From Halobaculum marinum (GTDB lineage Archaea; Halobacteriota; Halobacteria; Halobacteriales; Haloferacaceae): DNA of 64,000 nt. Numbering within the stretch: position 1 is the first letter of the stretch; the number at the start of each line of letters is the position of its first letter. Both the position numbers and the translations under genes were made by a program. Below the pieces are notes generated by a model. The model saw nothing but the letters and a program-made list of their open reading frames with translations, ran no database searches and was not told the DNA's origin. Below, one piece after another: positions 1 through 38,237 of this stretch. The DNA lies in contig NZ_CP119989.1 in assembly GCF_029338555.1 (NCBI RefSeq), positions 1,178,001 to 1,242,000 on the forward strand, in the 5' to 3' direction.

Positions 1-2
1 GG

Positions 3-404
3 CGATCGTACACCGACGGCGTCCCCGATACGATCGGGTTCGACATCCCCTCCCCGTCTGACGACGACTACGGGGGCACCGACCCCGAGGGGCTCGGGGC
101 CGACTCGGTGTACCGATTCGGACACGACGCCGGGAACGACGAACGCGGCCTGTTCGCCGTGAGAAACCAGGGGACGAACCCGATCCGGGTGTACAGCACA
201 CAACCGGACCGGGAGGACGTGCCGAGCGTCGTCATGTACGACATCGACTCCGGCGACACCCTGACCGAGAGTGACCCGTCGGCGGTGCTCGGCGTCGGCG
301 ACGTGCTCGTCTGCGGACTGGAGATCGACACGTACGGCGTCCCGGTCCGCGAGGACGAGTACGACCTGACGCTCACGATCAACGGCGTCGCGACGAACGA
401 GTAA
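3..404 (+). CDS. DUF1102/TasA-camelysin-like secreted protein, 5' end missing
   Basis: This frame is open from the window edge to the TAA at 402-404, so only the C-terminal 133 residues are present. The segment with FAVRNQGTNPIRVY matches the equivalent strand in the complete protein at 3069-3746 (FRISNQGTDPVGIF), which marks the two as paralogs. Such proteins are secreted beta-sandwich subunits related to the DUF1102 and TasA/camelysin families. The fragment has no C-terminal membrane anchor. It is the first of three family members in this locus and lies 53 nt upstream of the next. The family assignment rests on the shared motif and on context. Confidence 0.75.
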   Translation, partial: RSYTDGVPDTIGFDIPSPSDDDYGGTDPEGLGADSVYRFGHDAGNDERGLFAVRNQGTNPIRVYSTQPDREDVPSVVMYDIDSGDTLTESDPSAVLGVGDVLVCGLEIDTYGVPVREDEYDLTLTINGVATNE

Positions 405-457
405 CACCCACTCGGAGCACGGCGGTTCGACTCCGCCGGTGGGTTTCACAGATCGTA

Positions 458-2017
458 ATGAAACGAGTCGCCGCCGCGGTCTCCCTGCTGGCCCTCTCGG
501 GAGCACTCGTGTTCCCATCAGCCGCCGCACCGTTCGCCCTCTCCCAATCTGACGTGATCACGCAAGACGTGTCGCTCGCCCCGACGTCTGCCCCCAACGG
601 CGACTACGCCTACCTCGACGACGACGAACTCGTCGTCGACCTCACCGCCTCGAACCCGAACCTCGCGGGGGACGCCGAGGGGGTCAACCCCGACGCCGTC
701 ACGACCATATCGAACGTCTTCCGGATCCACTACAACGGCTCGCAGTACGCGCACGTCTGGATCACAGACGAGTCCGACGCCGTGACGTTCGTCGTCGACG
801 GCGAGCCGATCCAGTCCGAGGCGGCCAACGTCACACTCGGGCCGAACGAGTCGGTCGCAGTCGGGGTCGTCGTCGACACGACCGGCGACGGCGGCGACGG
901 GCTGATCGACCAGATCCAGGTGAACGCCCGTGTCGCCGACCCCGAGACGGCGACCGTCGCGACCGGCGGCGGCACGGGCGGCGACGACTCGGACGACACG
1001 AGCGTCGGCGTCGCCACCACCTCGATCCGACAGTCCGCACCGAGCGAGACCGAGCGGCGGGTCGAGGTGCGCAATCCCGACGGGTCGGTCGGCGTCGACC
1101 TCGACCCACTGCCGCTCGACGCCGGCGGGAACGTCACGCTCGACGAACTCGACCTCACGGCGACCGGCGGAGCCACCGTCGACCTCGGACTCGACGTGTC
1201 GGCGCCGGACACCGACGCCGGCCCCGGGTCTCTCCTCGGCGTCGAGTCGCTCGGGGCCGTCGCGGTGACCGAGGCGGACGCGGGCAGCGTCGACGCGGCG
1301 ACGCTCCGGTTCAGCGTCTCGCCCGCCTACCTCGACGCCCGGAACGTCGACTCAGACGATCTGACCGTGTTCCGGACCAGCGACGGGGAGACGACGACGC
1401 TGCCGGTCCGTGTCGTCGGGGAGCGCGACGACGGTCGCGTCGTCGTCGAAGCCGACACCCCCGGGTTCTCGACGTTCACCGTCGCCGCGCTTCGGCCGGC
1501 GATCCGAGTCTCCGAGGCGTCGCTCTCGACGACCGACATCGAGGTCGGGGAGCGGACGACCGTCACTGCCCGGGTCAGCAACGACGGGCGCGCCGCCGGC
1601 GAACGGACGCTACGGGTGACGCTCGACGGCGACCTGGTCGCCGAACGGGTCGTCGACCTCGCTCCGAACGAGACGACGACCGTGACGGTCGACGTCGCCC
1701 CCGACGGGCCGGGGAGCTACGAGGTCGCCGTCGACGGCACGACTGCGGGCACCCTCGTGGTCGCGGATGGAGAGTCGACCGACGACGCGGCCGCCGGTGG
1801 CGCAACCCTGACCGAACAGTCCGACCTCGGAGACACCACGCCGGGTGGAGCGTCAACTTCGGGGGCCGGGACGGTCGCGGACGGCGAACCCGACGTGGCG
1901 ACCGCCGGTCCGGTCGAGGAGCCGGCGGGACTCGGACTGCCCGAGGTCGGCGGCCTCACGGTCGCGGTCGCGCTGGTGGTCGCGACGCTCCTGCTCGTCC
2001 GGCGCGTCTCTCGGTGA
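458..2017 (+). CDS. DUF1102 surface protein with PGF-pre-PGF and CARDB-like domains and C-terminal anchor
   Basis: The product has 519 residues. Residues 1-24 form a Sec-type signal. A DUF1102-like domain follows (about 50-160, with GVNPDAVTTISNVFRI). Then come a Gly/Asp-rich spacer, a PGF-pre-PGF-type domain (about 200-345, ending in DTPGFSTFTV) and a CARDB-like beta-sandwich (about 348-435). A low-complexity acidic stalk leads to a single membrane helix (about 493-514) with a short Arg-rich tail. The C-terminus reads PEVGG, then the hydrophobic helix, then RRVSR. This recalls protein-sorting tags of the PGF-CTERM or GlyGly-CTERM type, although no exact PGF is present. The stop codon overlaps the start of the rhomboid-like gene (GTGA), so the two are probably translationally coupled. 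It is likely a surface-anchored protein. Confidence 0.85.
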   Translation: MKRVAAAVSLLALSGALVFPSAAAPFALSQSDVITQDVSLAPTSAPNGDYAYLDDDELVVDLTASNPNLAGDAEGVNPDAVTTISNVFRIHYNGSQYAHVWITDESDAVTFVVDGEPIQSEAANVTLGPNESVAVGVVVDTTGDGGDGLIDQIQVNARVADPETATVATGGGTGGDDSDDTSVGVATTSIRQSAPSETERRVEVRNPDGSVGVDLDPLPLDAGGNVTLDELDLTATGGATVDLGLDVSAPDTDAGPGSLLGVESLGAVAVTEADAGSVDAATLRFSVSPAYLDARNVDSDDLTVFRTSDGETTTLPVRVVGERDDGRVVVEADTPGFSTFTVAALRPAIRVSEASLSTTDIEVGERTTVTARVSNDGRAAGERTLRVTLDGDLVAERVVDLAPNETTTVTVDVAPDGPGSYEVAVDGTTAGTLVVADGESTDDAAAGGATLTEQSDLGDTTPGGASTSGAGTVADGEPDVATAGPVEEPAGLGLPEVGGLTVAVALVVATLLLVRRVSR

Positions 2018-2928
2018 CTCGTGGACCGAACGCTTTCGTGGGTTCGGGTCACACACCCGGTGATCGTCGCGTGCTAGACGAACACCGATCGGTTCGCGCG
2101 GAACTGCGTCGACGCGGCCGCGTCCGCGACTGCCTCGCGTTAGCGGTCGTCCCGGCCGTCCTCGTCGCGGTGTTCCTGCTCCCGGAGTCGACCCGGCGCG
2201 GGCTGGCGTTCGTCTACCAGCGACCGACCCTCGCGACCGCGTACACGGCCCACTTCGTCCACCTGTCGCTCGACCACCTGCTCGCCAACGTGCTCGGCTA
2301 CGTGCTGTTGGCCGGCACGGGCTACGTGCTCGCGGTGCTCGCGGGCGCTCGACGGCTGTTCGGCGCCGCGGCCGCGACGAACCTCCTCGCGTTCCCGGTC
2401 GTGCTCTCGGCGCTGAACCTGGCGATCCCGAGAGACGCCGTCGGCTACGGCTTCTCCGGCGTGACGATGGCGTTCGCCGGACTGCTCGCGGTCGTCGGCG
2501 CGGCGTACGCCGGTCGACGACTCCACCCCGCGGTCGGCGTGCGACACGCGCCGGGCGCGTTCTTCGCCGTACTCGCGCTCGTGTCGGTGATCGTGTTACC
2601 CTCGGTCCCGCTCGCGTGGGCGCTCGCGTCGGTCGCCGCACTGGGGGCGCTCGGGTACGTGGGCTCGGCCGCGCGGGCGCTCCGCTCGCCCGCCGCACCG
2701 TCAGCGTGGCGCGGGGTCAGCGACCCGGGGTGGTCGGATATCCTCGTCGTCGCCGCAGTCGTGTTCTTCGGCTACCCGTTCGTCGGCTTCCCGGCGGACG
2801 TTCGCAGTGGTGGCACGCTCACCAACGTGTACGTCCACCTCCTCGGGTTCTGTCTGGCGTTCCTCGTCGCGTACGTGTGCGCCGAGTCCGGGCTGTTCGG
2901 CGCTGGGTCCGATCGGGGCCACCCCTGA
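2014..2928 (+). CDS. rhomboid-family intramembrane serine protease
   Basis: This is a 304-residue polytopic membrane protein. It carries the rhomboid hallmarks: H83 and H88-L-L-A-N92 in an early helix, GYGFSG with the predicted nucleophile S148, and VYVHLLGF with the partner H275. About six or seven helices are predicted. The GTG start at 2014 overlaps the upstream stop. A second in-frame GTG at 2071 would remove 19 non-hydrophobic residues and is equally possible. Rhomboids cleave membrane helices within the bilayer. Coupling to a surface protein with a C-terminal helix suggests, but does not prove, a protease-substrate pair. Confidence 0.85.
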   Translation: MTRGPNAFVGSGHTPGDRRVLDEHRSVRAELRRRGRVRDCLALAVVPAVLVAVFLLPESTRRGLAFVYQRPTLATAYTAHFVHLSLDHLLANVLGYVLLAGTGYVLAVLAGARRLFGAAAATNLLAFPVVLSALNLAIPRDAVGYGFSGVTMAFAGLLAVVGAAYAGRRLHPAVGVRHAPGAFFAVLALVSVIVLPSVPLAWALASVAALGALGYVGSAARALRSPAAPSAWRGVSDPGWSDILVVAAVVFFGYPFVGFPADVRSGGTLTNVYVHLLGFCLAFLVAYVCAESGLFGAGSDRGHP

Positions 2929-3068
2929 CTGTCGGTGGTCCGCCGAACGCGGGGCTCAGGGTCGGCCTGAGCGGCGTCACACTCGGGCATCGATCCCGCG
3001 GACTGCTCAATACAATGACGGGTCCTCCCCATCGGCAGAACACACTCGGGACCCGGGTGTGTGCAACC

Positions 3069-3746
3069 ATGGATCGACGGAAATTCCTCGCAAGTGTGGG
3101 ATCGCTCGCCGCCGGAACAACTGCTGCCGTCAGTACGGGCGCGTTCAGTCGAACGAGTGCGACTCGTTCGGTGAACGTACGGACTGTTGGTGACGCGGCC
3201 GCGTACCTCAAATTGAGCGGTGGCCAGTACGCCAACTACAACGAGAACGGCGTGCTGGAACTGGAACTGGACCGGATAAACGCCAACTCAGACGTCGAGT
3301 TCTCCGACGTCTTCAGGATCAGTAATCAGGGCACCGACCCCGTCGGGATATTCATCGACGAGGGGAGCGCGAGCTACGCGTTCCAGAACGGGAACGGACC
3401 GGCGGAAGCGCCGTCGGAGGCGGGCTCGGACGGGATGTACAACGTCCTCAGTAACGCGGGCTTCAATCAGGCCGGGTGGTACGACGACGACATCACCACC
3501 GGAGAGGACATCAACGGGCCGAAAGCGCTCCCCAGCGGCTACCGGCCGTCGCCGCCGGACGGGAACAGCGCGAACAATCGGACCTTCGGCACCGACAAAG
3601 ATCACATTCTCGCGGTCGGTCAGAGCATCTCGCCGGACTGGTACATCTTCGACACGCCCGCCGACCCCTCCGACCTCGACATCACCGGCGAAATCGTGAT
3701 CCTCGCGTACTCGAAGGACTACGTCGACGCAGGCAAGGGGCCGTAA
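3069..3746 (+). CDS. secreted DUF1102/TasA-camelysin-like protein with Tat/SipW-type signal
   Basis: The 225-residue product starts with MDRRKFLASVG. This is a twin-arginine-like signal running into an Ala/Gly/Thr segment that ends in STGAFS, a motif typical of SipW-dependent signal peptides. The mature part carries FSDVFRISNQGTDPVGIF, the DUF1102-type strand, and ends after a beta-rich region with no anchor. An ATG at 3015 is in frame, but 3069 is preferred because it places the RR motif at the N-terminus. The signal-peptidase gene lies 108 nt downstream. The protein is probably a filament- or matrix-forming subunit; that role is inferred from the TasA/camelysin families. Confidence 0.85.
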   Translation: MDRRKFLASVGSLAAGTTAAVSTGAFSRTSATRSVNVRTVGDAAAYLKLSGGQYANYNENGVLELELDRINANSDVEFSDVFRISNQGTDPVGIFIDEGSASYAFQNGNGPAEAPSEAGSDGMYNVLSNAGFNQAGWYDDDITTGEDINGPKALPSGYRPSPPDGNSANNRTFGTDKDHILAVGQSISPDWYIFDTPADPSDLDITGEIVILAYSKDYVDAGKGP

Positions 3747-3854
3747 TCGCGACCGACAAGTCGACGTACTGACTGCGTCGGTGACGGTCGATCAGCGGCC
3801 GTCCCGGCGGACCCGAGCATTCTTGTCTCCCGCAGCGAACACGTCATCGAATCG

Positions 3855-5021
3855 ATGGATGCCCGACGACTCCTGACGCTCGGCACCGAGGTGCTCCTCG
3901 TCGTGTTCGTCGTCTCGTTGGTCGCCGGCCAGGCACTCGGGCAGCCGATCCTCCTCAGTTACGTCGAGACCGGGAGCATGGCGCCGACGATGGAGCCCGG
4001 TGACGGCTTCATCGCGGTGCCGGCGGCCATCGCGGGCGAACCAGAAGCGGGCGACGTGGTCACCTTCGAGGCCGAGGAGTTGAACGGCGGCGGCCTCACC
4101 ACCCACCGGATCGTGGGCGAGACCGACAGGGGGTACATCACCCGTGGGGACGCGAACCCGTTCATCGACCAGGACGGCGACGAACCGCCGGTGAAGGACG
4201 CCCAGATCGTCGCACACGCGCTCCAAGTCGGCGACTCCGTGGTCGTCCTCCCGGGGGTTGGGACCGGCGTCGTGGCCGTGCGCGGGGTCCTCTCGGGCGC
4301 ACAGCGGTGGGTCGCGACCACGGTCGGCAGTCGGTCGCTGCTCGGGACGCAGGGAATCGCGTACCTCGTGTTGGCCCTGTCTGCGCTGGGCTACGTGGTC
4401 GACCTCCGCCGCGGGGGCGACGGCGCGACGCGGGACCGCACTCGGTCGACGGACCGCGACGAGGGGGTTTCGACGCGACTGATCCTCGTCGGTCTCGCCG
4501 GGATGGTGGTCGTCTCGGCGACGGCGGCGATGGCCGTCCCCGGGGGGACCCAGCAGTTCGGGATCGTCAGCGCGGAGTTCGACTCGGAGAACCCGACGGT
4601 GATCAGACAGGGCGAGTCCGCGATGCTCGAGTACCGGGTCCCCAACGCTGGGCTCGTCCCGGTCCACGCGTACGTCCGCCCGGCCAGCGACGGCGTCGAC
4701 GTCGCGCCCGACCACGTGTTCGTCTCGGGACGGGCAGAGGGCCGCGTGTCGGTGACGCTGTCGGCTCCCCCGGAGACGGGGTACTACCGCCGCTACGTCG
4801 CCGAACGGCGGTACCTCGCGGTGTTACCCGAGCCGTGGATCCGGGGCCTGTCACTGGTGCACCCGTGGCTCCCCATCGTCGCCATCGACGCGCTCCTCGC
4901 TGGGAGCCTGTACGGGCTCGGAGTGCTCCTCGTCGACGGGAGCCGGATGCGGCGTCGCTCGCACGACTCCAGACACGAGCGCTCGACGCTGGTGCGCCTG
5001 TGGCGGGTCTTGTCGCGGTAG
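3855..5021 (+). CDS. ER-type signal peptidase I with extra extracytoplasmic domain
   Basis: This 388-residue S26-family signal peptidase has an N-terminal membrane helix (about 10-29). The catalytic Ser41 lies in TGSMAPTM, and His84 in THRIVG replaces the bacterial lysine, as in archaeal and ER-type enzymes. The conserved RGDAN box is at about 97-101. The peptidase core ends near residue 160. Three more predicted helices (about 164-183, 209-228 and 338-361) bracket a beta-sandwich segment (about 235-325) that is not part of the peptidase fold. The gene sits between DUF1102 substrates and a DUF5305 gene, which suggests a dedicated, SipW-like processing enzyme rather than the general signal peptidase. 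Confidence 0.92.
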   Translation: MDARRLLTLGTEVLLVVFVVSLVAGQALGQPILLSYVETGSMAPTMEPGDGFIAVPAAIAGEPEAGDVVTFEAEELNGGGLTTHRIVGETDRGYITRGDANPFIDQDGDEPPVKDAQIVAHALQVGDSVVVLPGVGTGVVAVRGVLSGAQRWVATTVGSRSLLGTQGIAYLVLALSALGYVVDLRRGGDGATRDRTRSTDRDEGVSTRLILVGLAGMVVVSATAAMAVPGGTQQFGIVSAEFDSENPTVIRQGESAMLEYRVPNAGLVPVHAYVRPASDGVDVAPDHVFVSGRAEGRVSVTLSAPPETGYYRRYVAERRYLAVLPEPWIRGLSLVHPWLPIVAIDALLAGSLYGLGVLLVDGSRMRRRSHDSRHERSTLVRLWRVLSR

Positions 5022-5069
5022 TTCCCGCGACCGATAGTCCTTTGACACGTCGACCCACAGGCAGGTTCG

Positions 5070-6320
5070 ATGGACGAGGCCACGCGTCTGCGCGTTCGGG
5101 CCGTACTATCGTCGTGGGCGACGCTGTTGTTGGTCGCCGCGGTCGTCGTCGGCGCACTCGGCGCGTGGGCGACGTACGGCGCCCACGTCGCGCCGGGGAC
5201 GACGACCGAGGAGCGGACGACGCAGGCGTGGAGTACGACTGCCGACTTCGACCACTCGGCGACGGTCACCCGGGAGAACCCGCTGTTCCCGGTCGGCACG
5301 GAACTGTCGAACCGCTCGACGTACTTCACCGCCGCCGCGCCGGTGCTCGACGGGACGTTCACGGTGGCGCCGCGAGGGCTCGACGGCAACGTCTCCGTCG
5401 ACCTCGCGGCGACGCTCGTGCTCCGCTCGGCGGACGAGGAGACCACCTACTGGCGGGACACGCGGCCCCTCGCCGAGTCGAGCGCCGCCGGCGCCGACGG
5501 CCCGGTCTCGCTGGCCTTCTCGCTGAACGTGACCGAGGTGGCCCAGCGCATCGCGACCATCGAGGAGGGCATCGGGACGACGCCCGGCGAGACGAGCGCC
5601 GCGGTCGTCGTCGACGCGCGCGTGGCCGGCACGGCCGACGGCGACCCGAGCAGTCTGGCGTTCTCCCGACGGCTCTCGCTCGGACTGGCCGGCGACACGT
5701 ACACCGCCACCGCGCCGGGGTCGACCACCGAGACCGTCGAGCAGACCACCACGGTCCGGGTGCCGGACACCGCGGGGCCGCTCCGATCGATCGGTGGCCC
5801 GTTCGCCCTGCTCGTCGGCGCGGTCGCGGCGGGCGGTCTGGGGTACGCCACGCGTCGGACGGACCTCGCGCTCGACGACCACGAGCGTGCTCGACTCGAC
5901 TACCTCGACGACCGAGCGGAGTTCGACGAGTGGATCGTCGCCGTCGAGTTGCCGCCCCCGGCGGACGACGTCACTGTCGCGGAGGCAGCCTCGCTCGCGG
6001 ATCTAGTGAATCTCGCGATCGACACCGACACCGCGGTGCTCGAAGCACCCGGCGAGGAACTGTTCACCGCCGTCGCGGACGACCACCGCTACACGTATCG
6101 ACCGCCGGCACCGACCGCGGACCGCGACGGCGGCGCCCTCGCTGGGACGGTGCTCGGGGGGAACCACACGGAGAACGGAGCCGACGCGACCGCCGACGGC
6201 AGTGATCCGCTGGCGGTAAACGGCGACGACCCAGCGGCGACCGCCGGCGCCGCCGACGACGGCGGCGACGACCGCGATGATCCGACGACTGCCGCGCCTC
6301 CCGACGCCGAGCGCGAGTGA
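5070..6320 (+). CDS. DUF5305 membrane protein
   Basis: The product has 416 residues with a helix near the N-terminus (about 15-37), a large external beta-rich region (about 40-235) and a second helix (about 244-262). An acidic cytoplasmic tail ends in an Asp/Ala-rich low-complexity run. This architecture matches haloarchaeal DUF5305 proteins, whose function is unknown and which recur beside signal peptidase I genes. It starts 48 nt after the peptidase gene and is probably co-transcribed. It may act as an accessory or scaffold for export of the DUF1102 proteins, which is inference. Confidence 0.8.
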   Translation: MDEATRLRVRAVLSSWATLLLVAAVVVGALGAWATYGAHVAPGTTTEERTTQAWSTTADFDHSATVTRENPLFPVGTELSNRSTYFTAAAPVLDGTFTVAPRGLDGNVSVDLAATLVLRSADEETTYWRDTRPLAESSAAGADGPVSLAFSLNVTEVAQRIATIEEGIGTTPGETSAAVVVDARVAGTADGDPSSLAFSRRLSLGLAGDTYTATAPGSTTETVEQTTTVRVPDTAGPLRSIGGPFALLVGAVAAGGLGYATRRTDLALDDHERARLDYLDDRAEFDEWIVAVELPPPADDVTVAEAASLADLVNLAIDTDTAVLEAPGEELFTAVADDHRYTYRPPAPTADRDGGALAGTVLGGNHTENGADATADGSDPLAVNGDDPAATAGAADDGGDDRDDPTTAAPPDAERE

Positions 6321-6333
6321 GCCGGCGCCCCCG

Positions 6334-6720
6334 TCACCCGATCAACAGCCGCAGGTTCAGCGCCGTCGTGAACGCGCCGACGAACGACAGCACGACCGGC
6401 GGGAGGTAGTAGCCGACGCGGTCGCCAGCGCGGGCGCTGGAGAGGCTGATCGCGAGGCAGACGCCGAACACCACCAACTTCACCGCGATCAGGCCGGCCT
6501 CGCCGAAGCCGCCGACCGCGGCGGCGATGAGCGCGTTCGCCTCGTTCACGGTGTCCGAGTAGCCGATGAGCGCGAGCGTCGTGACGATGTCGCCCACGCC
6601 GTACGTCACGGTCGCGACGAACCACAGCCGCGAGAACTCGACGGCGTCGAACGGCGTGTCCGACAGCGAGAGCCACCTCGCTGACTCGGCGGTGGTGTCG
6701 TCACCGGCGTCCGCTGTCAT
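6334..6720 (-). CDS. small polytopic membrane protein, possibly DUF5658-like
   Basis: A 128-residue protein with a hydrophilic N-terminus of about 28 residues, followed by three or four predicted helices (around 30-55, 62-80, 82-100 and 104-126). The first contains GVGDIVTT, where an acidic residue lies inside a helix, as in DUF5658-type proteins. It ends 13 nt from the convergent DUF5305 gene and lies 42 nt downstream of the HAD phosphatase gene on the same strand. No function is assignable. Confidence 0.7.
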   Translation of the reverse strand: MTADAGDDTTAESARWLSLSDTPFDAVEFSRLWFVATVTYGVGDIVTTLALIGYSDTVNEANALIAAAVGGFGEAGLIAVKLVVFGVCLAISLSSARAGDRVGYYLPPVVLSFVGAFTTALNLRLLIG

Positions 6721-6762
6721 ACCGACGAGACGGCGGCGACGGATGAAAACACTCCCGAGTCC

Positions 6763-8007
6763 TCACTCCCCGTTCAGGTCGGCGAGACAGCGCCACGCGT
6801 ACATCGTCCGGAGCACGTCGGCGGCGCCCCCCGGTGCGAACACGAGGTCGTCGGTCGCGCGGACGTGCTCCAGCACGGACGCCGAGGAATGCTCGGGGGC
6901 GGCCGCGATGCCGGCTTCGTTGTCCGCGGCCCACTCCATCACTCGGAGGTCGGACTTCGAGTCCCCCATCACGCAGACGAACGGGTCGTCGACGCCGAGC
7001 ACGTCGAGTGCGGCCTCGACGCCGGCGGCCTTGTGGAGGTCCGCCGCCGCCAACTCGGCGGCGTCCGCGCGGTACAGCGCCACCTCCAGTCGGTCGAACA
7101 GCGCGGCGGCGGCCTCGGGGACCTCGCCGTCGGCGCTCGAACCAGCCCGCTCGATTGCGCCCGCAATCTCCGGGTCGTCGTCGGCGTAGAACGCGCGCGC
7201 AGCGGCGGCGCCGTCGTCGAGGCCGAGTCGGTCGCCTGCGGCCTCGCCGACGAGCCCGAGGAGGTGCACCATCGCCTCGTCGATCACCGCCTCGGCGTCG
7301 TCGCTCCCCGTCTCGTAGTTCGGCTTCAGCGTGACGTTGAACTCGTTCCCCTGCAGGTGACAGCCGCGCCGGACGCGCTCAGGCGCCCCGCGGAGCACGC
7401 CGTCGCGGACGCGGTCGACGACGCCGCGCACGTCGTCGTCCAACTCGTCGTACAGCAGGCGTTTGGTGTCGGCGCCACTGCCGGGGGTGAACACGCCGGC
7501 ACCCGCCTCGTACACGACCGACACGTCGCCCGAGTGGACGAGTTCGTTGCCGAGCCCCTGGATGAGGAACCCCTTGACGTTCTCCAGCGTCTGCCCCGTG
7601 CAGATCACCAGCGGGACACCGAGTTCCTCGGCGAACTCCGTGAGGAGGTGGAGCGTCTCCCGTGGGATCTCGTTGTCCGTCTCGCCGGCAGAGCGGAGCG
7701 TCTCGTCCACGTCGAGGACGAGCGCGTTCGGTGCGCGGCCGTACGTGCCGTGCAGGTCGAGCGCGGTGAACGCCGACTCGCGGTCGGCCATCGCCGCGAC
7801 CTCCGCGAGTGCGGCGCCGTCGTGGTCACCGAAGGCGCGCTCGATGCGCTCGCGCCGGTCGGTCAGGTCGGCGTTGGCCTCGTCCCAGCGGTCGAGCGCC
7901 ACCCGCGAGTCCAGCGGGGGGAACAGGTCGACGAACTCGCGGTACGCGCGCAGCGTCTCCGTGTCGAACTCGCCGTACAGTTCGTACAGATGGTCGTAGA
8001 GAGTCAT
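6763..8007 (-). CDS. HAD-superfamily phosphatase
   Basis: The 414-residue product has an N-terminal helical region (about 1-90) and then a haloacid dehalogenase fold. Motif I is LVLDVDET with D99 and D101, motif II is in LVICTGQT, and motif IV is MGDSKSD near residue 373. The layout suggests a Cof or trehalose-phosphatase-like (class II) HAD hydrolase acting on a phosphorylated small molecule, but the substrate is unknown. The start at 8007 (MTLYDHLYEL) was chosen because upstream in-frame residues are Arg-rich and non-conserved in character. Confidence 0.85.
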   Translation of the reverse strand: MTLYDHLYELYGEFDTETLRAYREFVDLFPPLDSRVALDRWDEANADLTDRRERIERAFGDHDGAALAEVAAMADRESAFTALDLHGTYGRAPNALVLDVDETLRSAGETDNEIPRETLHLLTEFAEELGVPLVICTGQTLENVKGFLIQGLGNELVHSGDVSVVYEAGAGVFTPGSGADTKRLLYDELDDDVRGVVDRVRDGVLRGAPERVRRGCHLQGNEFNVTLKPNYETGSDDAEAVIDEAMVHLLGLVGEAAGDRLGLDDGAAAARAFYADDDPEIAGAIERAGSSADGEVPEAAAALFDRLEVALYRADAAELAAADLHKAAGVEAALDVLGVDDPFVCVMGDSKSDLRVMEWAADNEAGIAAAPEHSSASVLEHVRATDDLVFAPGGAADVLRTMYAWRCLADLNGE

Positions 8008-8200
8008 GGAGACGACATCGGGACACCGGGCAAAAGCACCAGCGGCTTCGACATGTACGGCCGACCGGTGTCGACGACGACGGCTCGACCGGCGAGCGCG
8101 CGGCGAGTCCCTGTCGCAGCCAGATCCCGGCAGAAGTGTCAGGCTCACCGACTTATTGCCACGAAATGTGATATTTCTGTGCGATTGTCCACTACGGCGA

Positions 8201-8212
8201 GATATTTATACG
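8201..8212 (+). promoter_or_regulatory. TATA box upstream of the LOV histidine kinase
   Basis: An AT-rich block, gatatttata, stands out in GC-rich DNA. By haloarchaeal spacing (about 27 nt) transcription would start near 8233-8236, which coincides with the ATG of a short reading frame at 8235. Confidence 0.6.
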
Positions 8213-8234
8213 GTGTCCCACTCGTCCTGCGAGT

Positions 8235-8300
8235 ATGGACCGCAGTTTGGCGGATATCTGTACTCGCGCGTACGTTCCGAGGCGACGTGATGACCGATAG
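8235..8300 (+). CDS. possible leaderless upstream ORF, 21 aa
   Basis: An ATG lies 27-30 nt after the TATA box and opens a 21-codon frame (MDRSLADICT...) that ends at TAG 8298-8300. It overlaps the kinase start at 8290 in another frame. If the transcript is leaderless, ribosomes would meet this frame first, so it could attenuate or couple kinase translation. Only its position supports it. Confidence 0.3.
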   Translation: MDRSLADICTRAYVPRRRDDR

Positions 8301-10470
8301 CGAGACGGACGCCGGCACCAGTCGCTCGCCGTCGACGGCCTGCGTGGACGCGACGCTCCGTCTCGACCAGTCGCTCTGTTATCTCGGGGTCGACGACGAC
8401 GGAGCCGACCTGCTCGGCATCGGTTCCGACGCCACGGGGACCGACGTGCTCGCACGCCTGTCGCAGTCCCCCGCAGCAGTCCGGAGCAGACTCCACGCCG
8501 CACAGGAGACCGGGCGGCCGGTGACGATACGCTGGGACTCGTCGGCCACGGGGGCCGCGGGGTGGGGGTGGGCCCGCCCGACCGACGACGGCGTCTCGAT
8601 CCTGCTGTCGGTCGACGACGGGGCGCACACGGTGGACGGCGAACGGTCGGACCCCACCGAGTCCGAGTCGGTGGTGTCCCGGAGCGCACTGCTCGAACAG
8701 ACTGAGTACCTGGCGAACACCGGTGGGTGGGAGTACGACTGCAGTCGAGAGACGATCACGTGGACCGCGGGGACCAGGGAGATTCACGGCGTCGCGCCAG
8801 AGTACGAACCGACGCTGGAGGAGGCACTCTCGTTTTACCACCCGGACGACCGAGAACTGCTCGCGAATCACTTCGACCGTGCGATCGACGACCAGGAGCC
8901 CTACGACACGGAGGCCCGCATCGAGACGGGCGGCGGGCGTCAAAAGTGGATCCGCACCGTCGGCGACCCGGTCACAGACGCCGACGGCGAGGTCGTCGCC
9001 GTCCGCGGGGCGATCCAAGACATCACCCGACAACGTGCCCAACAACAGCAGATCTCGATTCTCAAACGAGCCATCGACGCGTCGCCGGTCGGTGTGACGC
9101 TGGTCGACGTTCGACGAGACGACGAACCGCTGGTGTACGTGAACAGCGCGTTCGAGGACCTCACCGGCTACGACGAGTCCGAGGCACTCGGTCGAAACTG
9201 CCGGTTCCTCCAGGGTGAGCGCACCCGCGAAGAGTCCGTCGCGCAACTGCGCGCGGCGATCGAGGCGGGCGACGCGGCGTCGGTCGAACTCCGAAACTAC
9301 CGGGCCGACGGGACGGAGTTTTGGAACCACCTCACGATCTCGCCCGTCGCCGACGCCAGCGGCGAGATCACCCACTACGTGGGGTTCCAGACCGACATCA
9401 CGGACGCGAAGTCGCTCAGGACACAGCTACAGCAGTTCAAGCGCGCAGTCGAGAGCTCCGCCCACGCGATCTACATCACCGACGTCGACGGGACGATCAC
9501 GTACGTGAACGAGGCGTTCGAGGAGATCACTGGCTACCCCGCCGACGAGGCCGTCGGACGGACGCCGCGAATCCTCAACTCCGGCCAGATGGACGACGAG
9601 TACTACGAGCGCCTGTGGAGTGAGCTCACCGCGGGGAACTCCTTCGAGGAGCGCATCATCGACAGGGACCGCGACGGACACTTCTACCGCGCCCACCAGA
9701 CGATCTCACCGCTGACCGACGACGGAGCCGTGACGGGGTTCGTCGCCGTCCAGACCGACATCACCGACCAGATCGAACGATCCCAACAGGTCGCCGTTCT
9801 CGACCGGGTGTTGCGCCACAACCTCCGCAACGACATGAACGTCATCCTCGGGCACGCAGGCCGACTCACCGACGCGCTCGACGGCGACCTCGCCGACGCC
9901 GCGGAGGCGATCACCGATGCCGGGAACAGACTGCTCGGCATCGCGGACAAGGAGCGAGCGATCGTGTCGCACTTGAACGGGCCCACCGAGCGGACCACAC
10001 AGGACGTGGAGTCACTGGTCGACGCCATCCTCGACGACCTCCGACCGAAGTATCCCGACGCGGAACTGACCGTCGACCGCCTGGCGGGGGTGACGGTGAA
10101 CGCCACGACGCAGGTCGGCGACGCCCTCGGCGAGTTCGTCGAGAACGCCCTCAAACACTCTGGCGCCACGCCGGCGTCGGTCCGCCTCTCGGCGGAGGTG
10201 CGGCGAGAGCGGTCGGAGGACGTCGTCCGGATCTCGATCGCCGACCGGGGGCCGGGCGTGCCCGAGTCCTTGCGCCAACTCATCTCTTCGGACCGGGTCC
10301 CGGACTCGTTGACCCACTCCGACGGCCTCGGGATGTGGATCGCGCGGTGGGTCGTGACGCGGTCGGGGGGATCCGTCGACTTCGAGGAGCGCACCGGCGG
10401 CGGGACGGTGGTCCACGTGACGCTCCCCGGCGGCTTCGACGAGTCTCCCGACGCCGACCAGCGACACTGA
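8290..10470 (+). CDS. multi-PAS histidine kinase with a LOV photoreceptor domain
   Basis: This 726-residue soluble kinase has no membrane helix. An N-terminal PAS-like region (about 15-115) is followed by PAS1 (about 133-250). PAS2 (about 256-375) carries GRNCRFLQ with C304, plus NYRADGTEFWNHL, the flavin-binding signature of LOV domains. PAS3 spans about 376-495. The H-box VLRHNLRND contains the phospho-acceptor H510, and an HATPase domain follows (about 600-715, with ENALKHS and GLGMWIARW). It probably senses blue light or redox through FMN and phosphorylates an unlinked regulator, as no receiver domain or response-regulator gene lies beside it. The ATG at 8290 follows a weak gagg. Confidence 0.92.
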   Translation: MTDSETDAGTSRSPSTACVDATLRLDQSLCYLGVDDDGADLLGIGSDATGTDVLARLSQSPAAVRSRLHAAQETGRPVTIRWDSSATGAAGWGWARPTDDGVSILLSVDDGAHTVDGERSDPTESESVVSRSALLEQTEYLANTGGWEYDCSRETITWTAGTREIHGVAPEYEPTLEEALSFYHPDDRELLANHFDRAIDDQEPYDTEARIETGGGRQKWIRTVGDPVTDADGEVVAVRGAIQDITRQRAQQQQISILKRAIDASPVGVTLVDVRRDDEPLVYVNSAFEDLTGYDESEALGRNCRFLQGERTREESVAQLRAAIEAGDAASVELRNYRADGTEFWNHLTISPVADASGEITHYVGFQTDITDAKSLRTQLQQFKRAVESSAHAIYITDVDGTITYVNEAFEEITGYPADEAVGRTPRILNSGQMDDEYYERLWSELTAGNSFEERIIDRDRDGHFYRAHQTISPLTDDGAVTGFVAVQTDITDQIERSQQVAVLDRVLRHNLRNDMNVILGHAGRLTDALDGDLADAAEAITDAGNRLLGIADKERAIVSHLNGPTERTTQDVESLVDAILDDLRPKYPDAELTVDRLAGVTVNATTQVGDALGEFVENALKHSGATPASVRLSAEVRRERSEDVVRISIADRGPGVPESLRQLISSDRVPDSLTHSDGLGMWIARWVVTRSGGSVDFEERTGGGTVVHVTLPGGFDESPDADQRH

Positions 10471-38162: not shown

Positions 38163-38237
38163 GGGCGCTTAGCTCAGTCTGGACAGAGTGCTTGGCTTCG
38201 GACCAAGTTGCCGCGGGTTCAAATCCTGCAGCGCCCA
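38163..38237 (+). tRNA. tRNA-Arg (anticodon TCG)
   Basis: A full cloverleaf folds by eye: acceptor gggcgct pairs with agcgccc at the 3' end, D-stem gctc/gagt, anticodon stem cttgg/ccaag with loop cttcgga (anticodon tcg), and T-stem gcggg/cctgc with loop ttcaaat. The discriminator is A and CCA is not encoded. There is no intron. Confidence 0.95.

Follow-up and report, generated by a model that had tools for sequence, protein, structure and literature searches.

To our knowledge, archaeosortase is the only well-studied route of C-terminal sorting in archaea, and archaeal rhomboids have few known substrates. In the archaeosortase A/PGF-CTERM system (TIGR04125/TIGR04126), haloarchaeal surface proteins carry a tag composed of a PGF signature, a membrane helix and arginine. 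In bacteria, the rhombosortase/GlyGly-CTERM system (TIGR03902; PMC3237569) pairs a rhomboid-fold protease with tagged surface proteins, as in Vibrio cholerae RssP–VesB: the cut made by rhombosortase leaves Gly-Gly as the new C-terminus, and on VesB processed by this enzyme the C-terminal Gly carries glycerophosphoethanolamine (PMC6219818). In Haloferax volcanii, two rhomboids with a role at the cell surface have been reported, RhoII (HVO_0727) and RhoI (HVO_1474) (PMC11985538, PMC9263693); RhoII contains an AN1 zinc finger, and other targets have been proposed for it (PMC4343526). No tagged partner of either protein was met in these papers, and the comparison with the rhomboid studied here is one of published descriptions. 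In the open-licence literature, which yielded these three papers on haloarchaeal rhomboids, no archaeal rhomboid/tag pair was encountered.

The locus in Halobaculum marinum

The stretch of DNA analysed here (the window) comprises 64,000 nt of Halobaculum marinum contig NZ_CP119989.1 (positions 1,178,001–1,242,000; GCF_029338555.1). Its start lies inside a haloarchaeal fimbria-type cluster of the tafi (Tat-fimbriae) kind, a name due to Galeva et al. (iScience 2025) as relayed by the citing paper PMC12687288. All cluster genes are on the forward strand:

1..404, + strand: 3′ part of a TafA-like Tat-signal fimbrial subunit (full length 189 aa, start upstream of the window)
458..2017, + strand: TafF-like surface protein, 519 aa, the proposed substrate (domain and NCBIfam matches)
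2014..2928, + strand: rhomboid intramembrane serine protease of a tag-linked haloarchaeal clade, the proposed processing enzyme (homologues, fold)
3069..3746, + strand: TafE-like Tat-signal fimbrial adapter-type protein, 225 aa (TafE NF052522, 61.5 bits, cut-off 155)
3855..5021, + strand: SipW-like signal peptidase I, 388 aa, a conserved neighbour downstream of the rhomboid
5070..6320, + strand: DUF5305 membrane protein, 416 aa (E 1e-45), a conserved cluster member

TafA-, TafE- and TafF-type genes thus occur together, accompanied by a SipW-type peptidase and a DUF5305 protein, as expected of a tafi cluster; the Taf-like proteins of the window all score below the NCBIfam equivalog cut-offs and are distant homologues. 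The TafA-like reading frame (9835–10404 of locus L036) has the N-terminus MKRRNLVLGIGASLLSLSTAMGTGAFS. The TafF-like protein, which matches the TafF model NF052523 with 42.8 bits (E 4e-11) against an equivalog cut-off of 420, consists of a signal sequence, a DUF1102 domain (33 bits, E 9e-8), a PGF-pre-PGF domain (TIGR04213, 33.7 bits against a cut-off of 28, yet on a protein whose tail is not PGF-CTERM), a CARDB domain (31 bits, E 4e-7), an acidic linker and a C-terminal tag. Unlike the window cluster, most Haloarcula-type TafF clusters examined have a hairpin tail and no nearby rhomboid.

A protein of about 200 aa (8133–8753 of L036), transcribed divergently from the cluster, is encoded approximately 1.25 kb before the window begins; it recurs just upstream of most taf loci (190–208 aa in many) and combines a DNA-binding-like N-terminal stretch (e.g. 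SRDDVYDILSNQRRRY in L115) with a membrane segment at its C-terminus, which makes it a candidate regulator of the cluster. The sole tRNA gene found in the window is a tRNA-Arg (anticodon tcg) at 38163–38237.

The rhomboid protease

The initial annotation had recognized a rhomboid with intact Ser148 and His275, and the comparison with homologues bears this out:

2455..2457, + strand: codon of catalytic Ser148 (GFSG, a GxSG motif), invariant in 107/107 homologues
2836..2838, + strand: codon of catalytic His275, invariant in 107/107 homologues

The GlpG-like His and Asn of the second transmembrane helix are likewise kept (His88 in 105/105 and Asn92 in 104/105 of the homologues covering those positions), and with the Ser/His dyad they place the protein in the rhomboid superfamily (S54). 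The AlphaFold2 model (mean pLDDT 88.8, pTM 0.86) has the S54 fold: a fold search retrieved GlpG with a Z of 13.3 (3.2 Å over 165 residues), and folds outside the rhomboid superfamily reached a Z of 6.5 at most. By sequence, Pfam PF01694 matches 22 of 41 clade members and has no match to the window rhomboid, and a search of PDB sequences returned no meaningful match. GlpG has a single helix between the Ser helix and the His helix, versus three in the model (176–194, 199–224 and 240–258), which suggests an inserted hairpin before the His helix.

The reading frame spans 304 aa from GTG 2014 and 285 aa from GTG 2071. Homologues start approximately 19 residues before the conserved Asp39, which matches GTG 2071, and this codon is preceded by GGTGA at 2059–2063; the first 20 residues of the longer form show no conservation and are modelled with low confidence. 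GTG 2071 is thus the probable true start, leaving an intergenic gap of about 53 nt like that of relatives, and the overlap between the TafF-like stop and the rhomboid start that the initial annotation had noted is probably the product of a misplaced start codon.

The C-terminal tag

The TafF-like protein ends in ...GPVEEPAGLGLPEVGGLTVAVALVVATLLLVRRVSR. In full, the tail reads VEEPAGLGL-PEVGG-LTVAVALVVATLLLV-RRVSR, with the following parts:

1916..1939, + strand: tag signature EEPAGLGL (residues 487–494), the part conserved across unrelated partners
1946..1999, + strand: membrane helix of the tag, VGGLTVAVALVVATLLLV (sequence and partner comparison)
2000..2014, + strand: basic cytoplasmic end of the tag, RRVSR (sequence and partner comparison)

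The tail had been described as PEVGG, helix and RRVSR; this tripartite layout stands, but PEVGG was dropped as the signature because the part conserved across partners is EEPxG[FIL], upstream of it. Across some 70 partners, the consensus is E-E-P-x-G-[F/I/L], one membrane helix and Arg-Arg, and in a diverse 31-row tail alignment E488 is invariant whereas G491 and one Arg are more than 90% conserved. None of the NCBIfam sorting-tail models, PGF-CTERM included, matched the tail of the window's TafF-like protein, which is the one full-length match to the tag profile in its own genome.

Linkage of the tag to a rhomboid clade

Rhomboid homologues were found in 132 of 292 haloarchaeal genomes, and a maximum-likelihood tree sets an 86-row haloarchaeal clade (support 100/99) apart from 21 outgroup rhomboids. 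Clade-level matches (more than 220 bits) were confined to haloarchaea, the remoter rhomboids elsewhere in the phylum scoring 106 bits or less. Looking for haloarchaeal rhomboids beside tagged proteins, as the initial annotation had advised, was rewarded, since this 86-member clade is encoded beside tail-bearing surface proteins. The usual neighbour is TafF with the tag, and most taf loci, across several families, preserve the order TafF, rhomboid, SipW-type peptidase, DUF5305; when named genomes were scanned, this arrangement turned up again in Halorubrum, Halobacterium, Haloplanus, Halolamina and Halobellus, among others. In Halorubrum salinum and H. laminariae (L242, L265), two tandem tagged proteins are followed by one rhomboid.

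Other neighbours of clade rhomboids include giants of approximately 2,000–2,650 aa with CARDB or beta-helix domains, PKD proteins, a VWD/trypsin giant and a cohesin-like protein. These unrelated partners have the tail alone in common, and at least five switches between Taf and non-Taf partners map onto the rhomboid tree. Motif-bearing tails occupy 58 of 172 gene positions beside clade rhomboids, 0 of 40 beside outgroup rhomboids and 4 among approximately 1,890 other genes, an enrichment that is more than chance, neither the counts nor the Fisher values being corrected for relatedness. When single-helix tails are considered, the motif is present in 58/70 neighbours of clade rhomboids versus 4/37 others, and two of these four come from rhomboid loci whose rhomboid gene had been overlooked or broken up in gene calling.

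A non-circular test was provided by a tail model built on TafF tails only and run on 2,938 C-termini. The top 104 places, which exceed the number of independent cases because some loci are present in two overlapping sets, were all taken by rhomboid loci, many with non-Taf partners (E-values from 1.6e-11 to 2e-4), and the first tail from elsewhere (L178, no rhomboid) came in place 105. A model made without the genus of the window still recovered the window tail, with 42.7 bits. At the scale of genomes, the tag (E ≤ 1e-6) was detected in 63/292 haloarchaeal genomes, all 63 of which encode a clade rhomboid, itself present in approximately 87/292. Tag proteins lie far from the rhomboid in some genomes (G127, G259, G009 and others), so that one rhomboid may serve several substrates.

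Exceptions and other tails

Among taf clusters, 55 have both rhomboid and tag, 29 neither, eight the rhomboid only and one the tag only. When phylogeny is controlled on the SipW tree, the association in taf clusters is not significant (median p 0.375), because independent switches are few (3.5 concordant versus 0.6 discordant of seven pairs). The initial annotation had also considered that the rhomboid could be an orphan in other genomes; in general it is not one, as clade rhomboids devoid of both a tagged neighbour and a taf partner amount to 7/86. Clade rhomboids without a tagged neighbour include L089, L096, L106, L111 and L122, and their genomes (G023, G127, G275, G030 and G126) have tag-like tails elsewhere; some of these are weak, and some belong to very large reading frames. 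G046 and G253 encode, away from their rhomboid, a second TafF-like protein whose tail is of the EAGAFG type.

Ten taf-type loci have a tagless TafF beside the rhomboid, with no C-terminal membrane helix at all in L090, L091, L092 and L105 and with a hairpin-type tail in L094, L101, L109, L115, L118 and L121. Such loci, together with the conservation of the SipW-type peptidase and the DUF5305 protein as neighbours, would be expected if the rhomboid cut another neighbour, such as a fimbrial subunit or the signal peptidase, and the tag were an anchor that had drifted to a common form within one operon type. This explanation nevertheless seems quite unlikely: in non-Taf loci (L077, L085, L099, L116, L123 and others), where fimbrial subunits are absent, the constant neighbour is the tagged surface protein, and the signature, which lies outside the helix, is conserved far above the needs of an anchor.

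In taf clusters without a rhomboid, TafF ends in PGF-CTERM, in a two-helix hairpin (Haloarcula type) or in no clear tag. The PGF-CTERM tails on TafF in clusters of this kind (L170, L180, L185) are true ones, replacing the EEPxG[FIL] tag, and anchoring modes are therefore exchanged at the same gene position. At L102, a clade rhomboid (7956–8831) lies next to an opposite-strand protein of 2,646 aa (16–7953), with a 4-base overlap, and this giant ends in a genuine PGF-CTERM tail (44 bits) with DEPAE ahead of it, possibly an intermediate between the two tags.

These tails bear on the alternative that the tag is a divergent substrate of archaeosortase (ArtA), the rhomboid serving, for example, in membrane-protein quality control or fimbria assembly. 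The two tails share a three-part build with Gly/Phe ahead of the helix, the genome of the window encodes ArtA (329 bits) and 10 PGF-CTERM tails above cut-off, TafF contains a PGF-pre-PGF domain, and the L102 giant, which adjoins a clade rhomboid, ends in a PGF tail of the genuine kind. However, archaeosortase A is unrelated to the rhomboid and its tag has another signature: TIGR04126, which gives true PGF tails 44–49 bits, matched neither the window tail nor any EEPxG[FIL] tail on which it was run, and genuine PGF-CTERM tails remained below 10 bits with the TafF tag model. PGF tails moreover occur on TafF precisely where the rhomboid is missing, whereas the tag tracks the rhomboid across unrelated partners. 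Processing by archaeosortase, which the initial annotation had named as one alternative for the tail, is in our view very unlikely.

Relation to rhombosortase

The pair resembles rhombosortase/GlyGly-CTERM in several respects: a rhomboid-fold protease is matched with tagged surface proteins, the tail combines a signature containing Gly with a single membrane helix and basic residues, and the same tail ends proteins of differing architectures. In contrast to rhombosortase, it is archaeal, the rhomboid gene adjoins the substrate gene, the signature is E-E-P-x-G-[F/I/L] rather than a Ser/Gly-rich GG, and two extra helices are predicted before the His helix. The rhomboid scores 19.7 bits with TIGR03902 against a curated cut-off of 84, and the GlyGly-CTERM model is absent from the NCBIfam matches of the TafF-like protein. 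Weak matches to TIGR03902 extend to 39 of 41 clade members (best E 2.7e-7) and also to 15 of 21 outgroup rhomboids, so this similarity is uninformative and lends no weight to a special kinship with rhombosortase.

The suggestion of a rhombosortase-like pair in archaea thus stands as regards the linkage, the single tag on unrelated partners and the other tails found without a rhomboid, and falls as regards membership of the rhombosortase family, as judged by profile scores. By analogy, the best reading is that the rhomboid works like a rhombosortase. A dedicated archaeal pair of rhomboid and tagged surface protein resembling rhombosortase/GlyGly-CTERM is a well-supported prediction from these comparisons.

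Predicted processing of tagged proteins

We propose, with a probability of roughly three in four, that the rhomboid is the dedicated processing enzyme for the EEPxG[FIL] tag of the TafF-like protein, which it is predicted to cleave. Computation showed the pairing of the genes, the fold of the rhomboid and its conserved catalytic residues, the tag common to unrelated partners and the differing tails in clusters without a rhomboid; from these we infer that cleavage occurs, where exactly it falls and what becomes of the new C-terminus. After export, the TafF pre-protein would stay anchored by the tag helix, its Arg end on the cytoplasmic side and the signature just beyond the outer face of the membrane. 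The rhomboid would then cut at, or directly beside, P-[A/G/S]-G-[F/I/L], a small-residue/Gly step of the kind that rhomboids favour, and the mature TafF-like protein of the window would be expected to end near VEEPA or VEEPAG. Some rhomboid substrates have a hydrophobic P4 residue, and its lack in the E-E-P-x-G-[F/I/L] signature counts against cleavage by a rhomboid. The cut would free the ectodomain from the helix, and the released TafF, either free or transferred to another anchor, could be built into a tafi-type fimbria or attached beneath it. As unrelated surface proteins bear the same tag beside the rhomboid, it very probably trims or re-anchors them too, as far as can be predicted from sequence.

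A stronger form of this proposal would have the rhomboid not only cleave the tag but also transfer the new C-terminus to a lipid or another amine, as proposed for rhombosortase. The glycerophosphoethanolamine on the C-terminal Gly of rhombosortase-processed VesB (PMC6219818) speaks for such a transfer. The use by TafF homologues of either the tag or a lipid-anchoring PGF-CTERM tail at the same place suggests equivalent outcomes, and hints that the new C-terminus may be moved to an anchor. Against it, ethanolamine lipids are not known to be abundant in haloarchaeal membranes, and on balance the transfer is unlikely. Rather unlikely, too, is the broadest form, a second, archaeosortase-independent system of C-terminal sorting in archaea, in which a clade of sortase-like transpeptidase rhomboids, of independent origin from rhombosortase, would covalently re-anchor fimbrial and giant adhesin-like proteins.

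Biological significance

Cleavage of the tag by the rhomboid, the reading that we favour, would add to this protease clade as a whole a predicted class of substrates that can be read directly from sequence, and it offers a likely step in the biogenesis of tafi. The pair appears to be a previously undescribed archaeal counterpart of a bacterial sorting system, suggesting that sorting by a rhomboid and a C-terminal tag may operate in archaea as well as in bacteria.
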